A stretch of DNA of 12,257 nt from Spirochaetota bacterium (lineage in GTDB: Bacteria > Spirochaetota > Spirochaetia > SZUA-6). The stretch lies in NCBI GenBank assembly GCA_003641675.1, contig QNBI01000016.1, positions 1 to 12,257 of the forward strand. Direction: 5' to 3'. The notes beneath the pieces were generated by a model, which had not been told where the DNA came from, did no database searches, and saw only the letters and a program-made list of their open reading frames with translations. Position 1 is the first letter of the stretch; each line of letters opens with the position of its first letter. Both the position numbers and the translations under genes were made by a program. Below are positions 49-12,257 of this stretch, one piece after another.

Positions 49-1074
49 ATGATAAACGAACCACTTTTATTACGGCCGGTCTTAATGGAAAAAATCTGGG
101 GCGGAAGAAGGCTTGCATCTGTTATAGGGAAAACGCTTCCCCCGGGTAAAATAGGCGAATCATGGGAGGCTTCTACTCATAGAAACGGTGTAAGTACAAT
201 AGCTTCCGGATCACTGAAAGATATAAGACTTGATAAAGCCATAGCAGGGAACCTTAAGGAAATGCTGGGAGAAAGAATTCTAAGCAGAGGATACGATACT
301 CTTCCTGTTCTTGTAAAATTTATAGACGCATCGGATAAACTTTCCTTTCAGTTACACCCGAACGATGAGTATGCCAAAATCCACGAAAATGAACGCGGCA
401 AGACAGAGATGTGGTATATACTATATACAGAACCCAATGCACAGCTTATATACGGGCTAAAGGAGGGAACAACAAGAGAGCTGCTGGGCAGCGCTATAAA
501 AAAAGGAGAAGCAGAGAAGTACCTCCGCTATGTGGATATAAGTGCCGGAGATGTTCTGTTCGTCCCTGCCGGAACTGTTCATGCAATACTCGGCGGCGTA
601 GTTCTTCTTGAAATCCAGCAGAGCTCGGATTCCACATACCGTCTATACGACTGGGGAAGACTCGGATTTGACGGCAAACCGAGGCCTCTGCATATAGAAA
701 AAGCTCTCGCTGTTATCAACTATGACTACAATGGAGATGTAAAAAATTTTAAGGGTAAAAAAACAGAATACGGAGACACATCTACCCTCGCCGAATCCCC
801 CTACTTTACAGTAAAAAGGTACAGAATAGAGAAAATATTTAAAATAAAAGAAAAATCCGAAGGCAGATTTAATATATTTATTATTACAAACGGCTCCGGT
901 AAAATGCAGTGGGAAAGGGGAGCTTCCAATTCACCGGCATTAGTATCATCGGGAGGTAAATCGAGATATTTAACCTATAAAAAGGGCGATACCTTTTTTA
1001 TTCCGCCCCAATGCTATAATTTAAGAGTAAGGCCGGACAGTAATTCAGAGTTTATCGACGTATTCCTTGATTGA
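49..1074 (+). CDS. manA: Class I mannose-6-phosphate isomerase (short, Bacillus ManA-like)
   Basis: Interconverts mannose 6-phosphate and fructose 6-phosphate in the cytoplasm, feeding mannose into glycolysis or supplying mannose 6-phosphate for GDP-mannose and glycan synthesis. The 341-residue protein matches the short bacterial class I type. It has the N-terminal LRPVLMEKIWGG signature, then the cupin core with the zinc ligands: His103 in QLHPND, Glu120 in GKTEMWY and His178 in VPAGTVHAI. The hallmark EIQQSSDSTYRLYDWGR follows. The ATG at 49 is chosen because family members begin about 10-15 residues before the EKIWGG motif. A TTG at 10 is in frame and the frame is open to the window edge, so a 354-residue form is possible. 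Neither start has a clear ribosome binding site. The last 30 bp overlap the convergent gene on the other strand. The link to the polysaccharide genes downstream is plausible but rests only on proximity. Confidence 0.93.
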   Translation: MINEPLLLRPVLMEKIWGGRRLASVIGKTLPPGKIGESWEASTHRNGVSTIASGSLKDIRLDKAIAGNLKEMLGERILSRGYDTLPVLVKFIDASDKLSFQLHPNDEYAKIHENERGKTEMWYILYTEPNAQLIYGLKEGTTRELLGSAIKKGEAEKYLRYVDISAGDVLFVPAGTVHAILGGVVLLEIQQSSDSTYRLYDWGRLGFDGKPRPLHIEKALAVINYDYNGDVKNFKGKKTEYGDTSTLAESPYFTVKRYRIEKIFKIKEKSEGRFNIFIITNGSGKMQWERGASNSPALVSSGGKSRYLTYKKGDTFFIPPQCYNLRVRPDSNSEFIDVFLD

Positions 1075-1560
1075 CCTGTTTACAATGCCGGCTATTTTCT
1101 CACCCAAAGAGAAGTCCAGTTTAGACTGATTAATTCTGTTTTCCTCGCCTTCATTACTGCCCTTTATGTTCCCCTTTACGATGAGTTTTGAGTATCTTGC
1201 ATCGTATAGATAATAGGAAGCGGAGGTCTTTACATGAACTTTCCGTTCCTTCGACTTAACCTGCTTTGTATTCACCTTAACCGCTACAAAATAACGGGCG
1301 CCGCCCTCCAGAGAAATGTTTAGGGCACTTGAAAAATCCTGTTTTCCCCAGTTTACATTCAGGATATTCTTGTCTCCCATATCAAAAACAATATGATTAC
1401 CGTCGAATAAGCCATAGTATATTCCCTCCTTTGTAGGAGGAGGGAAAGGACCGAATTCGCCGTTTGTACGTTCTTCAACGTAAAGACATAGGGTTTCTGA
1501 AAAAACGCTAACAGTCAGGACCAGAATACAAAGCGATAATACAACTTGTTTCAGCCTCAT
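1045..1560 (-). CDS. Hypothetical exported protein, 171 aa
   Basis: Not a family I recognise. The N-terminus is a typical Sec signal peptide: MRLK, a hydrophobic stretch of about 15 residues, then VFS-ET as a likely signal peptidase I site near residue 21. No convincing lipobox cysteine is seen. The mature part is about 150 residues, rich in alternating beta-type segments (for example YYGLFDG, FVAVKV, SYYLYDARYSKLIVKG), with a basic C-terminal tail; a small beta-sandwich or envelope protein is possible. The reality of the gene is supported by a strong ribosome binding site (AAAGGAGGAG, 8 nt before the ATG) on the minus strand. It overlaps the 3' end of manA by 30 bp, and its start codon is 18 bp from that of the divergent VWA/PIG-L gene. 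It is the only minus-strand gene in the window. Its promoter must lie inside the opposing gene. Confidence 0.75.
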   Translation of the reverse strand: MRLKQVVLSLCILVLTVSVFSETLCLYVEERTNGEFGPFPPPTKEGIYYGLFDGNHIVFDMGDKNILNVNWGKQDFSSALNISLEGGARYFVAVKVNTKQVKSKERKVHVKTSASYYLYDARYSKLIVKGNIKGSNEGEENRINQSKLDFSLGEKIAGIVNRSIKEYVDKL

Positions 1561-1561
1561 A

Positions 1562-1579
1562 GACTTATCTCCTCCTTTA
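1562..1579 (-). promoter_or_regulatory. Strong Shine-Dalgarno of the minus-strand exported-protein gene
   Basis: Read on the minus strand, the sequence is ATAAAGGAGGAGATAAGTCT immediately before the ATG. The GGAGGAG core is 8 nt from the start codon. This near-consensus site is the main non-ORF evidence that the small minus-strand gene is real. On the plus strand the same bases are pyrimidine-rich, which leaves the divergent VWA/PIG-L gene without any ribosome binding site at its candidate start. Confidence 0.7.
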
Positions 1580-3864
1580 TGATATTTTTTTTCTTTGTAG
1601 TGAAACAGGTATTTTTCACGCTACTTCTAATTCTCATTTTCAATGTATCGGCAGCGTACTGCCAAAATACAAAGAACAATCGGGATATCAAAGCAAGCGT
1701 AGTGTTAATACTCGATTCATCTTTTAGTATGAGGCTTACCTACAACTCTTCCTACCCGGGTATTCACGGAGAAAGCAGGTTAAAAAAAGCTAAAACATTT
1801 TTATACAGCCTGCTTACTGCTGAAAAACAGAAGAATATAGAATGGGCACTTGTATCATTTGGCGAAGATATCGGGAAGGGCAGAGATATTATTCTTAAAG
1901 TTCCCTTTACCACCAGCTATAAACGCATACTTAACTCTGCAGAACATATAAATGCATGGGGACTATCCCCTCTTAACTCCGCCATTTCTTTCGGTATGAG
2001 CTACTGTAATACGGGAGCCGCAGGCAGAAAAAAGATAGTTATTGTTATTACCGACGGTATATCAACAGACACAAATGGACTGCTGCCTTCGGAAAATAGA
2101 ATTTTGCAGGGCCTAAATCAGGGGCCCTTAGAACTATACTTTATAGGATTCCCTCTACCGGACAATGTAAAGCTTAAAAAAATGACGGAAAACGGGAATC
2201 TTAAACTAAATTCCAAAGAAGCGGATAACTACCACTTCTACTATATTTCACAACTTAAGACTGTTATGCAGAAAATATCACAAAGTATTGCTTCTTTAGA
2301 AAACAAACCGGCCGTTCCGGTAAAGAAAACCCCCACAGCAGCCCCGGCCTCAAGAAGGATAACTGTAAAGCATATTAATCCTTTTTTTATTGTGTTCCTG
2401 CTGCTGACAGCTTTGATTTTAATTTCTCTCCTCTACTTTGCATTTATTAGAAAACCAAAAGAGACAGAAAAAGTTCCTGTAGGAACGCGTCCTTTTATTA
2501 ATCTAAAAATTATTTCATCCTCCGGACAAAAAGAGCTGAAAAGACTGCACAAAGTCCCTGCAAAGATTGCCCAGACAGGCAATGCCGATATTATTTTAAA
2601 CGATGCCGGTTTTACCGGAAAACAGAAAGAGGCTTTTTTAAGAATAGAGTACTTTAACAATACACCGTTTATAAGGTCTAACTTTCCCCTTAATATAAAC
2701 GGTGTATCAAGAAAGCAGAAAAAACTCAAAGAGGGAGACCATATTCTCTTTGGAAGATACAGAATCTACTTTCTCTGTATTGGAAGCGAAAATGTATATG
2801 AAATAAGGAAAAAGAAGCCCTATCCAATCTATACAATTCATGCTGCCGCATTTCTCCTTATGGTATTTCTTGTCCTTGTTCTCGGGGTAAAACCTGTTAT
2901 TACAAAGACCCGGAAACTAGAACAGGTTCAGAAAATGCATGCCGGGTCCTCTGTTCCGAAAACCAAGGTTGAACCGCTTAAAAATAAAAGCAAGGTAATT
3001 CCTCCGGCTAAACTAATAAAGGAAAGTATACCCCTGGGAAAAATTGTATATACAAAACCCAGAATTTACAAACCTGGAGATAAAATAGCCTATTTTAAGG
3101 CTGATATTCTCTTTTTCCATGCTCACCCGGACGATGAGAGCCTTGATTTCGGCTGCCTTATGGCGCAGGCGGCAAGAGCCGGGAAAAAGGTTGTAACTGT
3201 TCTGTTTACAGACGGAGAGAGCGGCCTGGATCAATATCCGGCAAGAATAGTAAACGGCACATACCCGCCGCACGACTTAAAGGGTAAAGCTCTTGCCGGA
3301 GTCCGGGTAAAAGAAGCACAAAAGGCAATGTCAATTCTCGGTTCCCGCGTTTATATACGCCTTGGTTTAAAAAATCACCCTTACAGCTCTATAAAACAGG
3401 TTATGTCAAAAGAGGCTGTTTTTAAAGACTGGGGCGGCGAAACAGAACTTATTAAAAAGGTAACGGAAATTATAGAGGGTTATCATCCGGACATTATTGT
3501 AGCCCCGGACCTGCATACGGCAGCTTATGAGCATTTCGAACATGAAGCTGTGGGCTATATTATAAGAAAAGCAGTTTCAAAAATTAACAATATTGATAAT
3601 AGTTTTATAAAAGGGTATATTGTATCAGTCGACCCGCTTCAGAGAGAAGCATATCCCGGAAGAATCCGCATAGACGCCATGGGAAGAGACCGTAAACTTG
3701 ATATTCCCTACAGGCTCATTCAGAGGGAAGCGTTAAAACAGCACATCACCCAGAGAGATGCATCTGTAATAGGAGTTGAAATCCTTCCTAATTTCCGGTA
3801 TGAATACTATGCAGTTGAAAAATGGGATGTCACCGGTTCGCTTGAAAGCTACATAAAGAGGTGA
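1579..3864 (+). CDS. VWA domain - FHA-like domain - PIG-L/LmbE deacetylase fusion membrane protein
   Basis: A 761-residue protein with an unusual domain order. Residues about 8-28 form a signal peptide or anchor ending VSAAYC. Residues about 36-235 are a von Willebrand A domain with MIDAS residues D46-x-S48-x-S50, Ser130 in the third loop (usually Thr) and D159 in ITDG. A Pro/Ala-rich linker leads to a membrane helix at 268-289. Residues about 304-401 resemble an FHA fold (ADIILNDAGFTGKQ, NINGVSRKQKKLKEGDHILFG) but lack the canonical GR and S-x-x-H phosphopeptide residues. A second helix spans 416-441. Residues about 507-761 are a PIG-L/LmbE zinc deacetylase with AHPDDE (His516, Asp518, Asp519), TDGE and HFEHEAVG (His652, His655), so the active site looks intact. 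The predicted topology is VWA outside, FHA-like inside, deacetylase outside. An N-acetyl-sugar or envelope-glycan substrate is inferred from the family and from the wzz gene 19 bp downstream. The start is uncertain: no ribosome binding site precedes the ATG at 1579. A GTG at 1600 would give a cleaner signal peptide starting MKQVFF. Confidence 0.85.
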   Translation: MIFFFFVVKQVFFTLLLILIFNVSAAYCQNTKNNRDIKASVVLILDSSFSMRLTYNSSYPGIHGESRLKKAKTFLYSLLTAEKQKNIEWALVSFGEDIGKGRDIILKVPFTTSYKRILNSAEHINAWGLSPLNSAISFGMSYCNTGAAGRKKIVIVITDGISTDTNGLLPSENRILQGLNQGPLELYFIGFPLPDNVKLKKMTENGNLKLNSKEADNYHFYYISQLKTVMQKISQSIASLENKPAVPVKKTPTAAPASRRITVKHINPFFIVFLLLTALILISLLYFAFIRKPKETEKVPVGTRPFINLKIISSSGQKELKRLHKVPAKIAQTGNADIILNDAGFTGKQKEAFLRIEYFNNTPFIRSNFPLNINGVSRKQKKLKEGDHILFGRYRIYFLCIGSENVYEIRKKKPYPIYTIHAAAFLLMVFLVLVLGVKPVITKTRKLEQVQKMHAGSSVPKTKVEPLKNKSKVIPPAKLIKESIPLGKIVYTKPRIYKPGDKIAYFKADILFFHAHPDDESLDFGCLMAQAARAGKKVVTVLFTDGESGLDQYPARIVNGTYPPHDLKGKALAGVRVKEAQKAMSILGSRVYIRLGLKNHPYSSIKQVMSKEAVFKDWGGETELIKKVTEIIEGYHPDIIVAPDLHTAAYEHFEHEAVGYIIRKAVSKINNIDNSFIKGYIVSVDPLQREAYPGRIRIDAMGRDRKLDIPYRLIQREALKQHITQRDASVIGVEILPNFRYEYYAVEKWDVTGSLESYIKR

Positions 3865-3883: not shown

Positions 3884-5170
3884 ATGCACGGAGATGAAAT
3901 AAAAGAAATTAAAAATTCCACAGAAAGCAGAGACTATACGGCAGAGGAAGACACAATCTCTCTTCTCGACCTATTCGCAGTTCTTGTAAAGAGAAGAAGG
4001 CTCATTGTACTGACAACTTTTTTTGCAGCACTTTTTATCCTGGGTTTTGCTTACCTTACTCTAAAACTCCCACCGGATTCCCGCTGGAACTACCTGCCCA
4101 ATATATATAAACCAAAGGTTGAGGTGCTGGTTAAAGCGAGCTCTTCCTCCAGCGGGGCAATAAGCTCCATACTTTCATCGAGCGGCCTAAACTCTTTGGC
4201 AGGCCTCTTAGGCGCTTCTGCAGGCACTAACTCCAGCGCAGAACTTGCACAGGCTCTCCTGAAGGGCAATACCATAAAAGACCAGGTCGCAGAGGAATTT
4301 AATTTTAAGAAAAAGTACAATATCACTAAAAACCCGAAAACAACGGCAAGAAATATGATCCAGTCTGCCATGGATGCAGATTACGATGCAAAATCCAACA
4401 TACTCTCAATAAGCTATAAGAACATAGACCCGGTATTTGCAACAAAGGTTGTAAACAGAATAGTTGAACTTCTCGATAACCGTTTTAAGGATTTAACTCT
4501 GGAAAAGGTAAGACAGAAAAAGACTTTCCTCGAGGAGAGACTCAAAACTGTGGGAGTGGACTTAAAAACAGCTCAGGATAAACTGGTAGCTTATCAAAAA
4601 AAATACGGGATAATAGACCTGTCGGTGCAGGCAGAGTCGCATATAAAGATGATTGCCGATCTTACAACTCAGGTTTACAATAAAGAGATAGAACTTCAAA
4701 ACCTTAAAAGTTATCTAAAGGATACCAACCCGCAGATAGTCAGGCTAAAAAATGAAATAGATGCAACAAAACAGCTCATAAAGGAGCTTAAAAAGGGATT
4801 TCAAGAATTTTCCGGGGAGACAATTCCACAGGAAAAGCTGCCAGGCGTATCTGCGGAATATTTAAACTTAAAGAGAGACTTAAGCATACAGGAAACAATA
4901 TACACTATGCTTAGACAGCAGTACGAAGCCTCTAAAATAGAGGAAACGGATACTTCGCAGACCTTTCAGATTATAGAAAAGGCAGAGGTGCCTGAGGTTA
5001 AAACCAGCCCGAGCAGATTTAAAATTTGTATTATTTTTACAATAACTGCTTTTTTCCTTGCTGTTTTTATTGCTTTTATTGCAGAATACTTTGAAAGGGT
5101 AAAAAGGGACCCGATTGAATCTGTAAAGTTAAACGAAATAAAAAATATGTTTAAGAGTAAAAAGGGTTAA
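3884..5170 (+). CDS. Wzz-family polysaccharide chain-length determinant / co-polymerase
   Basis: Inner-membrane protein that sets the chain length of a surface polysaccharide or helps export it. It is 428 residues long, with the classic two-helix layout. An N-terminal helix at about 38-60 follows the basic KRRR. A large periplasmic region carries a Ser/Gly/Leu-rich stretch (85-118) and a long coiled coil (about 205-310). A C-terminal helix at about 379-401 is preceded by the Pro motif PEVKTSPSRFK. The segment around 319-353 (PGVSAEYLNLKRD to YTMLRQQYEASKIEET) matches the GNVR region of tyrosine-kinase-associated Wzz proteins. No Walker kinase domain is fused, so this is a stand-alone co-polymerase; a separate BY-kinase could exist elsewhere. 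The short cytoplasmic tail is rich in Lys. Its stop codon directly abuts the ATG of the NusG-like gene, which implies translational coupling. Whether the substrate is capsule, O-antigen or exopolysaccharide cannot be told from the window. Confidence 0.88.
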   Translation: MHGDEIKEIKNSTESRDYTAEEDTISLLDLFAVLVKRRRLIVLTTFFAALFILGFAYLTLKLPPDSRWNYLPNIYKPKVEVLVKASSSSSGAISSILSSSGLNSLAGLLGASAGTNSSAELAQALLKGNTIKDQVAEEFNFKKKYNITKNPKTTARNMIQSAMDADYDAKSNILSISYKNIDPVFATKVVNRIVELLDNRFKDLTLEKVRQKKTFLEERLKTVGVDLKTAQDKLVAYQKKYGIIDLSVQAESHIKMIADLTTQVYNKEIELQNLKSYLKDTNPQIVRLKNEIDATKQLIKELKKGFQEFSGETIPQEKLPGVSAEYLNLKRDLSIQETIYTMLRQQYEASKIEETDTSQTFQIIEKAEVPEVKTSPSRFKICIIFTITAFFLAVFIAFIAEYFERVKRDPIESVKLNEIKNMFKSKKG

Positions 5171-5731
5171 ATGTCCTACTTTGCAGTACAGGTAAAAACC
5201 GGCCGTGAGGAAATATTTCTGAAAAGCGCAAAAAAGGTTCTTGACTCCAAAGACGTTACTTTTTTATGGCCCAGGAAAAATTTAAGGATACGGCGCAGAG
5301 GCAAATGGCAGGATAAAGTAGCCTCCGTTTATCCCGGCTACATTTTCCTGGAAACACAGAAAATCGATAACGATCTGTACTGGGCTTTACGTAAAACCCA
5401 GGGCTTTTACCGTTTTTTAAGGGACAATCAGAATATAGAGCCCCTTTCCAAAAACGATGAGGAGATTTTAAAGCACTTTATCTCATGCGGTGAAATAATA
5501 GAAAAATCCAGAGTTGCATTTGATGAAAATGACAGAATCCATATAATATCCGGCCCGTTAAAAGGGCTAGAAGGGTTAATTGTAAAAGTAAACAGGAGAA
5601 AGGGGCGAGTAAAAATCCGACTTAATCTTTACAACAATACATTATATGCAGATCTGGGAATCGAAACAGTTGCATCATCCAGAGATGAAAATACTTACAA
5701 TTCAAGTTTAAATTCCGAAAATCAAAAATGA
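5171..5731 (+). CDS. NusG/RfaH/LoaP-like specialised transcription elongation factor
   Basis: A 186-residue paralogue of NusG. The NGN domain (about 1-105) begins SYFAVQVKTGREE and has YPGYIFLE and WALRKTQGFYRFL at the positions expected for the RNA-polymerase-binding face. A KOW domain at about 120-166 (DRIHIISGPLKGLEGLIVKVNRRKGRVKI) follows, and then a polar tail of about 20 residues. Stand-alone NusG paralogues inside polysaccharide or secondary-metabolite operons (RfaH, UpxY, LoaP) act as operon-specific antiterminators, so it probably promotes read-through of this or a related glycan operon. It starts directly after the wzz stop codon, with a modest AAGGG a few bases upstream, and overlaps the next gene by 4 bp (ATGA). 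I saw no RfaH-type ops element in the visible leader regions. It is unlikely to be housekeeping NusG, which usually sits by secE and rplK. Confidence 0.88.
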   Translation: MSYFAVQVKTGREEIFLKSAKKVLDSKDVTFLWPRKNLRIRRRGKWQDKVASVYPGYIFLETQKIDNDLYWALRKTQGFYRFLRDNQNIEPLSKNDEEILKHFISCGEIIEKSRVAFDENDRIHIISGPLKGLEGLIVKVNRRKGRVKIRLNLYNNTLYADLGIETVASSRDENTYNSSLNSENQK

Positions 5732-7224
5732 CGGCACAGAACATGATTAAAAGAAGCAAAAATAGAATTTATATAGTGGGTGCAGGTTTTACCGGTACAA
5801 CTCTGGCGAAGGAAATTCATTCAAAAAAGATATTCGGAAGAGTCGTTGCATTTTTAGATGATAACAGAAAAAAAATAGGAAATAAAATTAACGGCATTCC
5901 TGTTTTAGGTCCTTTGGATGCAGTTATAGAAATACTAAAAACAAACCCGGCAGACGAAGCAATTATAGCAATTCCGAGTGCAACAAAGGAACAGCTTAAA
6001 AGAATTTATAGCATACTTAAAAGGGCAGAATTTTCAAAGATAAGAATTGTGCCGCGGGTTTCCCAGATCCTTGAAGACGAAGCCCATCTAATACAGGCGC
6101 GTGAGATAAATCCCGAGGACCTGCTTGCAAGGATGCCCGTAAAGGTTAATCTTAAGGAGAGCCTCTCATACCTAAGAGGCAAAAGAGTACTGGTTACGGG
6201 TGCTGGCGGCAGCATAGGAAGCGAACTTTCGCGCCAGCTCCTATCCGGAGGCGCAGAGAGGCTTTACCTGTTCGGGCACGGAGAAAACAGTATTTATGAA
6301 ATAGAGAGAGAGCTTAAACTGCTTCAGGAAGAGGGGATAGGAGAAAAAGCAACAATTGTACCTATTATTGGAGAACTTCAGGACCGTGATTATGTAATGT
6401 TTCTGATAAAGAGACTTAAAGCCAATGTGGTTTTTCATACAGCGGCGCACAAGCATGTACCTCTTTTAGAGGCGAATCCGGTGGAAGCTGTAAAAAATAA
6501 TGTCTTCGGTACACGGAATATAGTGGATGCTTCACGGGAAGCCGGTATTGAACGGTTCGTCTTTATCTCAACGGATAAAGCGGTAGAACCGAGTAATGTA
6601 TACGGGGCATCTAAACTCATAGCTGAAGAGATTGTCCTGAACGAAGGGAAAAACGGTAAGAATTTTTTAGTCGTACGGTTCGGGAACGTTCTCGGTTCGC
6701 GGGGCAGTATTCTTCCTCTGTTCCAGAAACAAATCGCAAAGGGCGGGCCTGTCACCATTACACACGAAGCTGTTAAGCGATTCTTTATGACAATCCCGGA
6801 AGCAGCATCTCTTGTTCTAAAGGCGGGAGGCGTAGGGAGTGGCGGTACGCTCTATCTTCTTGATATGGGAGATCCTGTTTCTATTAAAGAACTTGCAGAG
6901 CAGATGATCCGGTTCTACGGCTATGAGCCGGAAAAGGAGATTAAACTTAAAATTACAGGCCTAAGGCCCGGTGAAAAACTCAGCGAAAAATTATGGACCA
7001 AAGAGGAAACACCTTACCCCACCGAATCCAATAAAATCCTTGAACTGCACCGCGAAAAACTGCTTATAAACGGAAACCTAAAACCGCTTATCGAAAAACT
7101 TTCTCCCGTATGCTTCTTCGATGAAAACAAACCGGATGTCTTTAGAAACAGAAAGTATTTAAAAAAAATTCTCAAAGAAGCTATCCCGGGAATACAGATT
7201 CACAGTAATGAACCGGAATACTGA
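5728..7224 (+). CDS. CapD/PglF-type nucleoside-diphosphate-sugar 4,6-dehydratase, soluble form
   Basis: Probable UDP-N-acetylglucosamine 4,6-dehydratase that makes the 4-keto-6-deoxy sugar nucleotide. Residues about 12-130 are an N-terminal Rossmann-like domain (IYIVGAGFTG, VAFLDDN) of the type found before the catalytic domain in CapD/PglF/WbpM. The extended SDR catalytic domain follows: NAD-binding VTGAGGSIGSELSRQ (from 156), HTAAHKHVPLLE (237-248), and the catalytic Ser281, Tyr292 and Lys296 in FISTDKAVEPSNVYGASK. RFGNVLGSRGSILP and GLRPGEKLSEKL are also present. The Tyr is kept, unlike the Met of WbpM-type enzymes. At 498 residues it lacks the four N-terminal membrane helices of full-length (about 600-residue) relatives, and no in-frame code for them exists upstream, so it should be cytosolic. 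It overlaps the NusG-like gene by 4 bp and the aminotransferase by 17 bp. 4,6-dehydration with or without C5 inversion cannot be distinguished. Confidence 0.9.
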   Translation: MTAQNMIKRSKNRIYIVGAGFTGTTLAKEIHSKKIFGRVVAFLDDNRKKIGNKINGIPVLGPLDAVIEILKTNPADEAIIAIPSATKEQLKRIYSILKRAEFSKIRIVPRVSQILEDEAHLIQAREINPEDLLARMPVKVNLKESLSYLRGKRVLVTGAGGSIGSELSRQLLSGGAERLYLFGHGENSIYEIERELKLLQEEGIGEKATIVPIIGELQDRDYVMFLIKRLKANVVFHTAAHKHVPLLEANPVEAVKNNVFGTRNIVDASREAGIERFVFISTDKAVEPSNVYGASKLIAEEIVLNEGKNGKNFLVVRFGNVLGSRGSILPLFQKQIAKGGPVTITHEAVKRFFMTIPEAASLVLKAGGVGSGGTLYLLDMGDPVSIKELAEQMIRFYGYEPEKEIKLKITGLRPGEKLSEKLWTKEETPYPTESNKILELHREKLLINGNLKPLIEKLSPVCFFDENKPDVFRNRKYLKKILKEAIPGIQIHSNEPEY

Positions 7225-8425
7225 CAGAGAGAACTTTATCCCCTTTGCAAGGCCGTCCATAGGTGAAGAGGAAGAGGAAGCCGTAATAAAGGTACTTCGC
7301 TCCGGATGGCTTACAACAGGGAAAATTGCCGAGAAATTCGAAACAGAGTTTGCAGGTTTCGTAGGAAGTAAGTATGCGGCTGCACTTAATTCGGCAACAG
7401 CCGGATTACATTTAGCCTTAGAAGCAGCAGGCATAAAAAGAGGCGACAGAGTAATTACAACTCCCTTTACTTTTGCGTCCACTGCAGAGGTAATAAGGTA
7501 TCTGGGTGCAGACCCGGTTTTTGCAGATATCGAAGAAGAGACGGGAAATATCAGTCCGGATTTAATGTTTAAAACCCTCTCTGAGTATAATGAGAGAGAA
7601 AAAGCCAAAATTAAGGCGGTTATTCCTGTTCACTTTGCCGGTCTTCCATGTTCTATGGAAGAAATTGAGGATGCTGCAGATAAATTTGAGCTGCAAATTA
7701 TAGAGGATTCGGCACATGCCTTTCCTGTAAAGCTTGCAGAAGGCAGGTATAAGGGCAGATATGCAGGTACAGTGGGGGATATGGGGGTTTATTCGTTCTA
7801 TGCAACCAAAACCATCACCACCGGCGAAGGAGGAATGCTTGTAACCGACAGTAAAACCTGCTATGAAAGAGTCAAGGTTATGCGGCTTCACGGAATAGAC
7901 CGCGATGTTTTTGACCGTTACAACTCTATAGAGGGAAGCTGGAAGTACGATATCACAGCCCCGGGATTTAAGTACAATATGACAGACCTGGCGGCCGCAT
8001 TGGGCCTTGTGCAGCTTAAAAATGCGGTTAACTTTCTTGAAAAACGCAGAGCAATAGCCAGATACTATATAGAGACATTTTCACAATACGACTTTCTTAA
8101 AATACCCGACTACAGCCCTGAACATGCATGGCATCTCTTTGTAATTCGAATTGCTCCTGAAAAACTAACAATCGGCAGGGATGGATTTATAGAACTCCTT
8201 AAGGAAGAGGGGATAGGAACATCTGTCCATTTTATACCTCTACATATAATGACTTACTATAAAAAGAGATACGGGTTTAAGGAAAACGATTTTCCTGAAA
8301 GCTTTAAGAGATACAGAAATTCTATAAGTATCCCGATTTACCCCGGTTTATCCGATGACAGCCTGCAGCTCATTTCGGAGACCGTAGTAAAAATAGGGAA
8401 AAAATACTACAAAAAGGCCACTTAA
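7208..8425 (+). CDS. DegT/DnrJ/EryC1-family PLP-dependent sugar aminotransferase
   Basis: Transfers an amino group, usually from glutamate, to the keto carbon of a nucleotide-linked keto sugar. The 405-residue protein shows the family pattern. It has the N-terminal FIPFARPSIGEEEEEAV and RSGWLTTG, the PLP phosphate region NSATAGLHLAL, the cofactor-contacting EDSAHA (Asp167), and the Schiff-base lysine Lys201 in SFYATKTITTGEGGM. The TAPGFKYNMTDLAAALGLVQL segment and a C-terminal VHFIPLH segment follow. Its start overlaps the dehydratase by 17 bp, a tight coupling. With the dehydratase it would make a UDP-4-amino-4,6-dideoxy-N-acetylhexosamine (the PglF/PglE or FlaA1/PseC logic), a precursor of bacillosamine-type or related sugars. 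No acetyltransferase, PseB/PseI or glycosyltransferase gene follows, so the end sugar is not decided. It is the last gene of the operon; I see no convincing intrinsic terminator after it. Confidence 0.9.
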   Translation: MNRNTDRENFIPFARPSIGEEEEEAVIKVLRSGWLTTGKIAEKFETEFAGFVGSKYAAALNSATAGLHLALEAAGIKRGDRVITTPFTFASTAEVIRYLGADPVFADIEEETGNISPDLMFKTLSEYNEREKAKIKAVIPVHFAGLPCSMEEIEDAADKFELQIIEDSAHAFPVKLAEGRYKGRYAGTVGDMGVYSFYATKTITTGEGGMLVTDSKTCYERVKVMRLHGIDRDVFDRYNSIEGSWKYDITAPGFKYNMTDLAAALGLVQLKNAVNFLEKRRAIARYYIETFSQYDFLKIPDYSPEHAWHLFVIRIAPEKLTIGRDGFIELLKEEGIGTSVHFIPLHIMTYYKKRYGFKENDFPESFKRYRNSISIPIYPGLSDDSLQLISETVVKIGKKYYKKAT

Positions 8426-8614: not shown

Positions 8615-9202
8615 TTGGCAAGGCCGAAGGACGATAAAAAACGTGAAAAAATAATAAACGCAGCATTCGAGGTTTTTGGAAAGAACGGCTTTGATAGTTC
8701 TACAATCCAGAGTATTGCCGAACTATCCGGTGTCGCTTCCGGTTCTATATACAATTACTTTTTAAACAAAGAAGACCTCTTTACTGCAACAGTCGATGAA
8801 GGATGGAAGAATTTTCTCTCCCAGATAAGATTAATCAACAGTTCCAAAGAACGGATAACTGTGAAATTCGAAAACTTTCTCAACCTGGCCTTCGAAATAC
8901 TCCAGAAGTCACTTCCCCTTTTACGGGGAATGCTCTTCAAGGCTAACCAGCATAAGCTTCTAAATAAGAATTTCAATACTCTGTTTTCACTTATAGAAGA
9001 GCTTTTAACAGAAGGAAAGTCCAACGGTTTGCTGGATATATCCAATGACAAAGAGCACGTTTCTAATCTTATTAAGATAACCGTTTTGGGAATCCTCTTT
9101 TCTGCCGCACTTTCACCGCCGGAGAAACTAAATGAAGAAATAGAATCGCTTAAAAATTCTGTAAAGAAGATGTTCCTGGAAAAATTAAAAATAGGCTATT
9201 AA
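8615..9202 (+). CDS. TetR/AcrR-family transcriptional repressor
   Basis: A 195-residue one-domain-plus-ligand-pocket regulator. The N-terminal DNA-binding domain (about 10-56) has KIINAAFEVFGKNGFDSSTIQSIAELSGVASGS followed by IYNYFLNKEDLF, the diagnostic TetR helix-turn-helix. The helical remainder is a ligand-binding and dimerisation domain with no recognisable effector specificity. The TTG start is backed by a good ribosome binding site. A perfect 34-bp palindrome lies between its promoter and its start, so it very likely represses its own operon. The membrane-fusion gene follows with a 56-bp gap and the pump after that, the usual arrangement of a drug- or lipid-responsive efflux regulator. 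The inducer cannot be predicted. Confidence 0.92.
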   Translation: MARPKDDKKREKIINAAFEVFGKNGFDSSTIQSIAELSGVASGSIYNYFLNKEDLFTATVDEGWKNFLSQIRLINSSKERITVKFENFLNLAFEILQKSLPLLRGMLFKANQHKLLNKNFNTLFSLIEELLTEGKSNGLLDISNDKEHVSNLIKITVLGILFSAALSPPEKLNEEIESLKNSVKKMFLEKLKIGY

Positions 9203-9258
9203 TAATCAGGGCCGTCGATATGTAAATTTTGCCGGAGAAAAAGGGTACACAGATACAT

Positions 9259-10632
9259 ATGAAAAGAAAAGGGAAAACTTTAACTATTGTAATTGCTATA
9301 ACCGCAGCTGTAATTTCTCTAAGCGTATTTGCAAGATTAAAAAACAGAAGTGCCAAAGATACTGCAGTACAGACAGAGATACCTGTAGAAATAGAGAAAC
9401 CTCAATACAGAGTAATGGAGAAAATTCTTTCCTTCACAGGAAACCTTGTATCCGGAAATACGGTAACAGTACTTTCGAAGATACCGGGGAAAATAGAAAA
9501 GATATATGTAACTGAAGGAGCTAAAATTTACAAAGGAGAACTCCTTGCAAAAATAGAGGACGATTCTGTAATCCTGCAGATGAAACAGGCCTACTCCGCA
9601 TGGAAAGCTTCCGAAGCTCAGTACAACAAAATAAGAAAAGGGGCAAGAAAAGAGGAAATAGAAAACACTCGGGCCCTTGTTAAACAGGCAAAACAGGACC
9701 TTGTAGATGCGGAGGAGAATCTAAACAGGCTTAAGAGACTCTATAAAAACGGAGCCATACCTAAATCACAGTACGAAGAAAGCGAAAGCAGGTACAGAAA
9801 TGCAAAAACCTCATATCAGAACGCACAGAGAAGCCTGTCACTAATGGAGAAGGGTGCTTCACCCGAAGAGCTGGAAATGGCCCGGGCCAATATGGACGCT
9901 ATGAAAGCTCAGTACGAACTTGCCTGCCTGCAGGTTGACTATACAAGAATAACAGCTCCTATCTCCGGAAAAGTCGCTAAAATATTTGCCGATAAGGGCA
10001 ACATGGTAGCTCAAACAACACCTATTCTTACAATAATAAGTGAGAGCCTCATAGAGGCGCAAATACTTATACCAGAAAAATACTACGGTGAAATTAAAGA
10101 AAAGAAAGATTCCATAATAGTCAACATTTACCCAAGTGCATACACCAGCTCCAAACCCTATACGGGTAAAATATCTGCAGTCGATTCGGTAATAGATCCT
10201 GCAAGCAGAACCTTCACTGTCAGTGTGGATATTGAAAACAGAGACGGCAGCCTCCTCCCCGGAATGTTTATAGAGGCCGATCTTGTAATAGAACATTACG
10301 ACAATGCATTAACCGTTCCGATTGGAGCAGTTGTAAACAGTAACGGCAGAGAAGGGGTTTTTATTGTGAAGGAAAGCGCTGTATCTCCTAAAAACGGCGA
10401 AGGAAAAGATAAAATAAACAGAAAAGTACAGGTTAAGGCGGAAGATGCTCAAAAAGACAAGCTAAAAGGCTTAAAACTCTCAACTGCTCAATTTATCGCT
10501 GTTAAAACGGGGATAAGAGAAAGCGGGAGGGTGCAAATTCTAAAGGGCATTTCAGCTTCTGATCTGGTTATTATAGATGGCAATTCATTTTTAGAAAACG
10601 GACAGGAGGTGAGAATTATCTCCGGAAAATGA
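9259..10632 (+). CDS. RND efflux periplasmic membrane-fusion protein (HlyD/AcrA family)
   Basis: Periplasmic adaptor that links the inner-membrane RND pump to an outer-membrane channel. It has 457 residues from the ATG at 9259. MKRKGK plus a hydrophobic helix at about 6-25 forms an uncleaved anchor or signal peptide without a lipobox. The lipoyl half-motifs (GKIEKIYVTEGAKIYKGELLAKIE and TRITAPISGKVAKIFADKGNMV) flank an alpha-helical hairpin at about 103-225. That hairpin holds two related segments, IRKGARKEEIENTRA and MEKGASPEELEMARA. The beta-barrel (VDSVIDPASRTFTVSVDI, LLPGMFIEADL) and the membrane-proximal domain follow. The latter carries a lysine-rich insertion at about 371-410. A TTG at 9229 is in frame and would add 10 residues. 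I prefer the ATG because it puts the charged n-region directly before the hydrophobic core, but neither has a well-spaced ribosome binding site. It overlaps the pump gene by 4 bp (ATGA). Confidence 0.92.
   Translation: MKRKGKTLTIVIAITAAVISLSVFARLKNRSAKDTAVQTEIPVEIEKPQYRVMEKILSFTGNLVSGNTVTVLSKIPGKIEKIYVTEGAKIYKGELLAKIEDDSVILQMKQAYSAWKASEAQYNKIRKGARKEEIENTRALVKQAKQDLVDAEENLNRLKRLYKNGAIPKSQYEESESRYRNAKTSYQNAQRSLSLMEKGASPEELEMARANMDAMKAQYELACLQVDYTRITAPISGKVAKIFADKGNMVAQTTPILTIISESLIEAQILIPEKYYGEIKEKKDSIIVNIYPSAYTSSKPYTGKISAVDSVIDPASRTFTVSVDIENRDGSLLPGMFIEADLVIEHYDNALTVPIGAVVNSNGREGVFIVKESAVSPKNGEGKDKINRKVQVKAEDAQKDKLKGLKLSTAQFIAVKTGIRESGRVQILKGISASDLVIIDGNSFLENGQEVRIISGK
10604..10612 (+). promoter_or_regulatory. 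Near-perfect anti-SD match upstream of the RND pump gene, unusually far
   Basis: AGGAGGTGA matches the 16S anti-Shine-Dalgarno consensus over nine bases, but ends 16 nt before the ATG at 10629. No start codon in the pump's frame sits closer. It may still load ribosomes for the pump, helped by coupling to the overlapping MFP stop codon, or it may be chance coding for GQEVRI in the MFP. Confidence 0.4.
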
Positions 10633-12257
10633 AGCTAACAGAATATTCGGTTAACCATAAAGTAACAACAATAATGATATTCGTAGCACTTACGACCTTC
10701 GGGGTTATTTCTCTCTCACGGCTCGGCCTTGAACTTTTTCCCGATATAACCTACCCCACGGTTGCAGTTGTGACAATCGATACGGGTGTAAGCCCCTATG
10801 AAGTAGAAACAAATATATCTAAACCGATAGAAGATGCTGTTTCTTCCATTAACGGGGTAGAGAATGTTTCTTCTACTTCCAGCGAAGGCATCTCTTTTGT
10901 AACGGTTAATTTTATATGGGGCACTAACATGGATACAATAGTGCCGGAAATAAGAGAAAAACTTACCGATATAGAGGCGGACCTTCCGGACGATGCAGAG
11001 CGCCCCATGATTTTTCGGTATAATCCCGAAGTCCTTCCCTCCATTACATTTGTTGTGGAATCCGATATAGAAGGGCTGGACTTAAGGCGTCTTGCCGAAA
11101 AAAGAATAGTTCCCGAAATAGAAAAAGTTAAAGGGGTAGCCGCTGCAAACATTTACGGAGGGAAAAAACAGGCGGTCACATGCAAACTTAATGTAGAGGA
11201 TCTTTCAAAACTCAATATTTCCATAACTCAGGTTTTAAAAGCCTTCCAGGGAGAAAACATAAATATACCGGCTGGCTCAATTAATATTAACAACAAATAC
11301 CTGGTGATAAGAACCATCGGAAAATTTTCACAGTTAAAAGACATAGGTAATGTCCTTATAGGTTACCGCGGGAAAACCCCGGTTCTGCTTAAAGATATCT
11401 CTTCTATTGAACTCGGAGACCTGCCTCAGGAAGAGTTTGTCCTTTCTGGTGCAAGGAATACAATAGAAATTCAGGTAAGGAAACAGCCCGGACACAACAC
11501 TGTGGACGTTATTGAACAGGTAAAAAATACGGTAAACAGTATTAAAAAAAGCCTCCCTCCTTCTGTTAAAATTCGAATACAGTCCGACCAGTCAAAATCC
11601 ATTATCATGTCTATAGGAGGCGTGGCAAGTGCTGCATGGCAGGGAGGGCTTCTTGCAATTCTGGTACTGCTGTTTTTTTTAAGAAATGTAAGCTCCACTC
11701 TCATAATCTCCGTAGCTATTCCTGTTTCCATTGTAACAACCTTTTCGCTTATGGACTTCGGTCACATCACCATGAACATTATGTCCCTTGCAGGCATTAC
11801 TCTGGGGATAGGCATGCTTGTTGACAACTCAATAGTTGTGCTTGAATCTATCTATAGAAAACAGCTCTCCAACCTTCCTCCTAAAGAAGCTGCAGTACAG
11901 GGAACAGAAGAGGTTTCCCGTGCAATAACAGCTTCCACCCTTACTACAGTTGCCGTTTTTCTTCCCCTTGTATTTGTAAAAGGCATAACAGGACTCATAT
12001 TCAAGGATTTAGCATTTACCATATCCTTTGCCCTATCCGTCTCTCTCGCAATGGCCATTACCTTAATGCCGGTACTATGCTCAAATTTCCTAAAGGTTCC
12101 TAAATTAACTATTAACAAGAAGCCGTTAAATGATAGCAGTTCCGGCTATAGGGAATTAAGCCTTGCAGATGTGGACATACATACCGGAAACAGAGCCGTA
12201 GATGCCGTAAGTAAAAGAATAAGAATATGGCTTGTAAATTTAGATGCATTTTATGAA
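10629..12257 (+). CDS. RND-family efflux transporter (AcrB/SwrC-like), 5' part, truncated by the window edge
   Basis: Proton-driven inner-membrane pump. The first 543 codons are open to the last base, about half of a usual 1000-1050-residue RND protein. Residues 1-32 contain TM1 and LGLELFPDITYPTVAVVT. The porter-domain half follows (GVSPYEVETNISKPIEDAVSSINGVENVSSTSSEG, REKLTDIEADLPDDAERP). TM2-TM6 lie roughly between 335 and 475. The TM4 motif GIGMLVDNSIVVLES has Asp399 at the position of AcrB Asp407, while the neighbouring AcrB Asp408 is Asn400 here, as in SwrC-type and many other non-proteobacterial RND pumps. The loop after TM6 seems longer than in AcrB and is polar. The gene starts within the MFP stop codon (ATGA). 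Substrate is unknown; drugs, detergents or lipid-like compounds are typical. An outer-membrane TolC-like partner is not in the window and may lie downstream. Confidence 0.92.
   Translation, partial: MKLTEYSVNHKVTTIMIFVALTTFGVISLSRLGLELFPDITYPTVAVVTIDTGVSPYEVETNISKPIEDAVSSINGVENVSSTSSEGISFVTVNFIWGTNMDTIVPEIREKLTDIEADLPDDAERPMIFRYNPEVLPSITFVVESDIEGLDLRRLAEKRIVPEIEKVKGVAAANIYGGKKQAVTCKLNVEDLSKLNISITQVLKAFQGENINIPAGSININNKYLVIRTIGKFSQLKDIGNVLIGYRGKTPVLLKDISSIELGDLPQEEFVLSGARNTIEIQVRKQPGHNTVDVIEQVKNTVNSIKKSLPPSVKIRIQSDQSKSIIMSIGGVASAAWQGGLLAILVLLFFLRNVSSTLIISVAIPVSIVTTFSLMDFGHITMNIMSLAGITLGIGMLVDNSIVVLESIYRKQLSNLPPKEAAVQGTEEVSRAITASTLTTVAVFLPLVFVKGITGLIFKDLAFTISFALSVSLAMAITLMPVLCSNFLKVPKLTINKKPLNDSSSGYRELSLADVDIHTGNRAVDAVSKRIRIWLVNLDAFYE

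Follow-up and report, generated by a model that had tools for sequence, protein, structure and literature searches.

A membrane-anchored PIG-L/LmbE deacetylase-family protein that carries an FHA fold and a VWA domain in Spirochaetota

The window analyzed here is the whole of a 12,257-base contig (QNBI01000016.1; G000:C16) of a Spirochaetota genome assembly (2.59 Mb, 485 contigs, 81.8% complete); a forward-strand reading frame, unbroken from the ATG at position 1579 to position 3864, encodes a protein of 761 residues in which a VWA domain, a transmembrane helix (TM1), an FHA-fold domain, a second helix (TM2), and a PIG-L/LmbE domain follow one another (Table 1). Our computational analysis finds three folds in one chain and a metal site that is invariant among the relatives, and it places the protein in a family whose architecture varies. 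We consider it probable, at about 60%, that the protein is an inner-membrane-anchored, periplasm-facing zinc de-N-acetylase in which the FHA-fold domain serves docking and the VWA domain provides a binding surface; in this reading, for which we infer the catalysis, substrate, and partners and predict the topology, the PIG-L domain would most likely de-N-acetylate hexosamine residues in glycans of the cell envelope. An initial annotation of the same DNA had proposed a membrane-scaffolded glycan deacetylase, which is also the best reading here, although it omitted the topology, the loss of the phosphothreonine-binding motifs from the FHA domain, and the variability of the VWA domain.

The order VWA, FHA-like region, and PIG-L in one membrane protein, as given in that annotation, is borne out by Pfam matches, hydropathy, the FHA fold, and the relatives; segments 269–287 and 423–441 are strongly hydrophobic, and the FHA-fold region sits between them. 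The single frame could in principle be a chimera of two genes, the error that the annotation had itself named as a danger, in an assembly as fragmented as this one; however, relatives P0002–P0014, from several databases, have the same domain order (34–74% identity, 94–99% query coverage), as does the protein of locus L002 (55% identity), which comes from another metagenome-assembled genome, so an assembly error as the origin of the fusion is ruled out, its probability being negligible.

The PIG-L family, PF02585, matches the window protein at 77.7 bits (curated cut-off 28.2) and is found in 61/61 relatives (E ≤ 0.1). In the available text of PMC4101496, the metal site of LmbE proteins is described as HXD1D2 plus H, with a spacing of 97–148 residues between ligands 2 and 3; the window protein has H516-P-D518-D519 and H655 with a spacing of 136, and these residues are invariant in the 61 relatives, that is, the motif set that had been read from the sequence is complete in its metal ligands and general base. 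H652 and E654, beside the metal site, are invariant in the same 61 proteins. The domain also has the Rossmann-like fold of LmbE enzymes, and the top-ranked folds in the structure search are N-acetylglucosamine-type deacetylases; the closest solved folds include MshB and BshB, and GalB (5cgz) shares the fold too. The GalB match, the large difference in score between this clade and other PIG-Ls, and a C-terminal motif of the clade's own would also suit another hydrolase or hydratase, or a catalytically dead binding domain, instead of a sugar deacetylase; given the invariance of the metal ligands, the general base, H652, and E654, and the deacetylases at the head of the fold ranking, we regard this as unlikely.

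Relatives were collected with the whole protein (147 at E ≤ 0.001, 120 of them listed, from a scoring limited to the 8000 candidates with the most words in common) and with the PIG-L domain (159, 120 of them listed). In the PIG-L-domain search, scores fall to 135 bits, followed by one fragment at 67 bits and then by matches at ≤58 bits; this gap marks the PIG-L domain of the window protein as belonging to a distinct clade. Above the gap, the named organisms are Spirochaetota; below it, two are named, the actinobacteria Naumannella and Micropruina. Among the listed relatives of the whole protein, an organism is named for seven, all Spirochaetota; one entry says only subsurface metagenome, and most are nameless.

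Profile parsing of the 229 proteins from both searches identified VWA, FHA, and PIG-L in that order in 68, TM-FHA without VWA in 41, a start with FHA in 38, and two oddities; the remaining 80 have PIG-L and no detected FHA or VWA (60 PIG-L alone, 20 TM-PIG-L), many of them being from short contigs or distant PIG-Ls. A FastTree phylogeny of the PIG-L domain was built from the 229 with 138 family rows and four distant PIG-Ls as outgroup, leaving out rows with no detected FHA, fewer than 400 residues, or a PIG-L match of <200 residues. Short FHA-TM-PIG-L forms and one long-branched VWA form (P0090) lie near its base, and the VWA label changes at least nine times (four forced by starred branches), a number that may be inflated because some ‘no VWA’ rows within VWA clades (e.g., P0050, on a contig of 1444 bases) may stem from truncated genes. 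The basal short forms and these label changes suggest that the conserved core is most likely FHA-TM-PIG-L and that VWA is variable; many relatives are FHA-TM-PIG-L proteins lacking VWA, which places this domain outside the core. In the window protein, VWA matches PF00092 at 45.8 bits (cut-off 23.8), with profile search matches that include 3ibs (BatB) and 4jdu. The metal ion-dependent adhesion site (MIDAS) is defined by DxSxS, T/S, and D; its columns are intact, as the initial annotation had recognized.

The clade is patchy: the PIG-L-domain search (E ≤ 1e-30) is positive in 5/392 sampled Spirochaetota genomes and in 4/326 of those that are ≥90% complete and ≤5% contaminated. A first search of the phylum (307/392 genomes) was not used as a distribution because at most two candidates per genome were scored in the rows listed and most of its listed matches cover the VWA end alone.

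Because the full-length fold search listed mainly the VWA and PIG-L parts, the FHA region was modelled alone; in this model, residues 296–411 adopt the FHA beta-sandwich fold, so that both the FHA-like region and the PIG-L match on which the initial proposal depended were recovered. PF00498 gives no match in the window protein, even with the limit at E 10, and PF16697 (YscD/PrgH) gives none at E ≤ 0.1, with weak matches in 3/61 relatives (best E 0.012). The phosphothreonine-binding motif set of FHA domains is GR, SRxH, and NGT. The domain was located by pattern in 109 of the 120 listed relatives (single rows may be misplaced), and the full set occurs in 0/109; GR is found in two (in one of them away from its canonical position), S[RK]xH in three (with spacing that is non-canonical by eye), and NGT in none. 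The SRRH of OdhI aligns with non-matching residues of the domain. This loss of motifs makes ordinary phospho-dependent partner binding unlikely. Canonical signaling, in which the domain would bind phosphothreonine and link the enzyme to Ser/Thr kinases, can call on the FHA fold itself and on kinases above cut-off in two of the five carrier genomes, with a sub-cut-off match in a third; nevertheless, with the full motif set missing from all 109 located domains, the OdhI SRRH unmatched, and no kinase match in either G000 (the window's genome, 82% complete) or G377, we rejected it as very improbable.

The topology was predicted from the K+R content of the 15 residues flanking each helix in relatives that have FHA and ≥400 residues (VWA class, n = 68; TM-FHA, n = 39; short, n = 34; the relatives are not independent). 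At TM1, the FHA side is richer in 54 vs 3 proteins of the VWA class (64 scored) and 33 vs 0 of the TM-FHA class (37 scored); at TM2, it is favored by 42 vs 14 (VWA, 68 scored) and 27 vs 3 (short, 33 scored). A cruder earlier count of 61 rows gave 41 vs 2 at TM1 (49 scored) and 27 vs 18 at TM2 (59 scored). An N-terminal hydrophobic segment is present in 57/70 proteins with a VWA match; the 70 include two whose VWA match comes after PIG-L. From the charge bias and this segment, the simplest predicted topology has VWA and PIG-L outside the inner membrane and FHA inside; the bias at TM2 in the TM-FHA class, 19 vs 11 for the FHA side (39 scored; p 0.2), is weak. The linker between TM2 and PIG-L is as short as 30 and as long as 651 residues, with a median of 69 in the VWA class, 261 in the TM-FHA class, and 61 in the short class. 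Three proteins (P0082, P0084, and P0086) exceed 1000 residues, their PIG-L domain lying ~600 residues beyond TM2.

MshB, BshB, and human PIG-L work within the cytosol or facing it, and the reverse topology would have a cytoplasmic PIG-L domain deacetylate, as they do, a small GlcNAc conjugate (a low-molecular-weight thiol, a lipid-linked sugar, or a nucleotide sugar). The closeness of the MshB and BshB folds is compatible with this, as is the finding that the window PIG-L is the sole PIG-L match in its 82%-complete genome. The charge bias at both helices, weak at TM2 in one class, argues for the opposite orientation, and linkers of up to 651 residues would better fit periplasmic reach; also, the NCBIfam equivalog scores are far under their cut-offs (MshB, 42.7/224.35; BshB1, 39.3/182.5; Mca, 37.5/277.15 bits), so a role in the MshB/BshB thiol pathway was rejected. 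We therefore judge the reverse topology improbable.

In the periplasm-facing deacetylase that we favor, the cytoplasmic FHA fold, in a hairpin between the two membrane helices, would dock the enzyme, independently of phosphorylation, at a partner machine, by analogy with the FHA domains of YscD/PrgH, and the MIDAS VWA would, in part of the family, add a periplasmic surface for metal-dependent binding; partners may set the activity or placement of the deacetylase. A tentative and more doubtful extension is inside-out control: FHA might bind a cytoplasmic partner and steer the enzyme, at the end of its ~30 to 650-residue linker, onto nascent envelope glycan while VWA senses or grips a periplasmic ligand. 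If true, inside-out controlled glycan de-N-acetylation would be built from PIG-L instead of the usual NodB-type deacetylase.

Only in the window's own lineage does the genomic context speak for a role in envelope glycans. Upstream of the fusion gene are manA (mannose-6-phosphate isomerase) and a divergent 171-aa gene that starts 18 nucleotides from ATG 1579; this head-to-head spacing is the same in L002 and L003, where the 171-aa protein is 70% and 72% identical. No clear ribosome-binding site precedes ATG 1579; the stretch rich in purines at that point is read on the minus strand. L002 has the same gene order as the window, followed by radA; L003 matches the upstream part, and its contig stops inside the fusion gene. 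Among the loci read, the downstream polysaccharide genes are common to the window and L002 only, so a conserved polysaccharide operon was rejected as proof of function. Homologues lacking VWA in L004 and L005 directly follow radA, and the neighbors in L041, L042, and L043 are SPFH/DUF401/YmdB, beta-CASP, and glyoxalase genes.

Several observations concern the surroundings themselves. The LoaP-type NusG paralogue in this spirochaete polysaccharide operon has a 65% identical counterpart in L002, whose Wzz-type gene (L002:8298-9594) is two overlapping frames, resembling a frameshift or sequencing error. The window continues downstream (8615-12257, +) with TetR, HlyD, and RND efflux genes, and in L005 the homologue is preceded by an RND-type gene and radA (L005:1-5812); together these hint at an old common neighborhood. 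A part in a defence system was rejected, as no PADLOC family matches (E ≤ 0.01). The window contains no Rfam match at the gathering threshold and no tRNA; promoter-like sites number 23 vs 16.1 expected and terminator-like sites 19 vs 8.0 expected.

Table 1. Positions of the fusion protein, its parts, and neighboring genes in the window (residues numbered from ATG 1579)
Feature	Position	Strand	Basis
VWA-TM-FHA-TM-PIG-L protein, 761 aa	1579..3864	+	
N-terminal hydrophobic segment (signal peptide or signal anchor), ~residues 1-29	1579..1665	+	hydropathy core 2-20
VWA domain, residues 41-228; MIDAS D46, S48, S50, S130, D159	1699..2262	+	Pfam
TM1, residues 269-287	2383..2439	+	hydropathy, charge bias
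FHA-fold domain without phosphothreonine motifs, residues 296-411	2464..2811	+	domain modelling, motif counts
TM2, residues 423-441	2845..2901	+	hydropathy, charge bias
TM2-to-PIG-L linker, residues 442-505	2902..3093	+	low model confidence (predicted local distance difference test, pLDDT, <50) at 438-473
PIG-L/LmbE deacetylase domain, residues 506-761 (Pfam core 511-665)	3094..3861	+	
HPDD: predicted zinc ligands H516 and D519, general base D518	3124..3135	+	invariant 61/61
EHFEHE with predicted third zinc ligand H655	3529..3546	+	651-655 invariant 61/61; aligns with MshB His147
TQRDASVIGVE, conserved motif, C-terminal part of the clade's PIG-L domain	3748..3780	+	
Divergent 171-aa gene, probable secreted protein, no family	1045..1560	-	
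Wzz/BexC-type polysaccharide chain-length protein, 19 nucleotides downstream	3884..5170	+	Pfam GNVR; TIGR01010 E 4.3e-22, below cut-off
LoaP-type NusG paralogue (antiterminator)	5171..5731	+	NF033641 156.3 bits, cut-off 125
Polysaccharide biosynthesis protein (Polysacc_synt_2, nucleotide-sugar dehydratase type)	5728..7224	+	PF02719 E 1.2e-108
DegT/DnrJ/EryC1 sugar aminotransferase	7208..8425	+	PF01041 E 3.4e-111

Extracytoplasmic glycan deacetylation shapes the biofilm matrix, the wall, and surface charge, and the classical periplasmic glycan deacetylases belong to the NodB family (PgaB/IcaB); if Spirochaetota have an exported, membrane-tethered PIG-L clade, a second enzyme family would join them in this chemistry, and the use of an FHA fold to place an enzyme without phosphothreonine could be put to the test. 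The idea can be tested in a named species, the marine, non-pathogenic Marispirochaeta aestuarii, which is listed with the short form (P0183).

Our searches of open-licence papers found no description of the VWA-FHA-PIG-L architecture; its parts resemble several known systems. BatB-type membrane proteins have a VWA domain with a MIDAS, as the fusion protein does, and to our knowledge they have no FHA or PIG-L. YscD, PrgH, and MxiG of type III secretion (PF16697) share the cytoplasmic FHA fold, and we know of no enzyme in their periplasmic part; no type III secretion gene was seen in the window. The poorly conserved phosphothreonine-binding residues and the separate periplasmic part, as described for these proteins in the available text of PMC3635987, are further points of likeness. 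DnpA of Pseudomonas aeruginosa, a putative LmbE-superfamily de-N-acetylase in a lipopolysaccharide cluster, likewise ties PIG-L to envelope-glycan genes; this likeness is by description, not sequence, the membrane localization and topology of DnpA being named in a reference title cited by PMC6048251, the available text of which mentions neither FHA nor VWA for it. A further comparison is with the LmbE/PIG-L deacetylases (MshB, BshB, Mca, and diacetylchitobiose deacetylase), described in the available text of PMC4101496 as a single alpha/beta domain, with which this clade has in common the fold, the HxDD+H motif, the ligand spacing, and the general base. Unlike these enzymes as described, it is fused to membrane helices and FHA (often also VWA), is predicted to be periplasmic, and has its own C-terminal motif; the fusion is a new variant on a known kind of enzyme, not a new kind of system.
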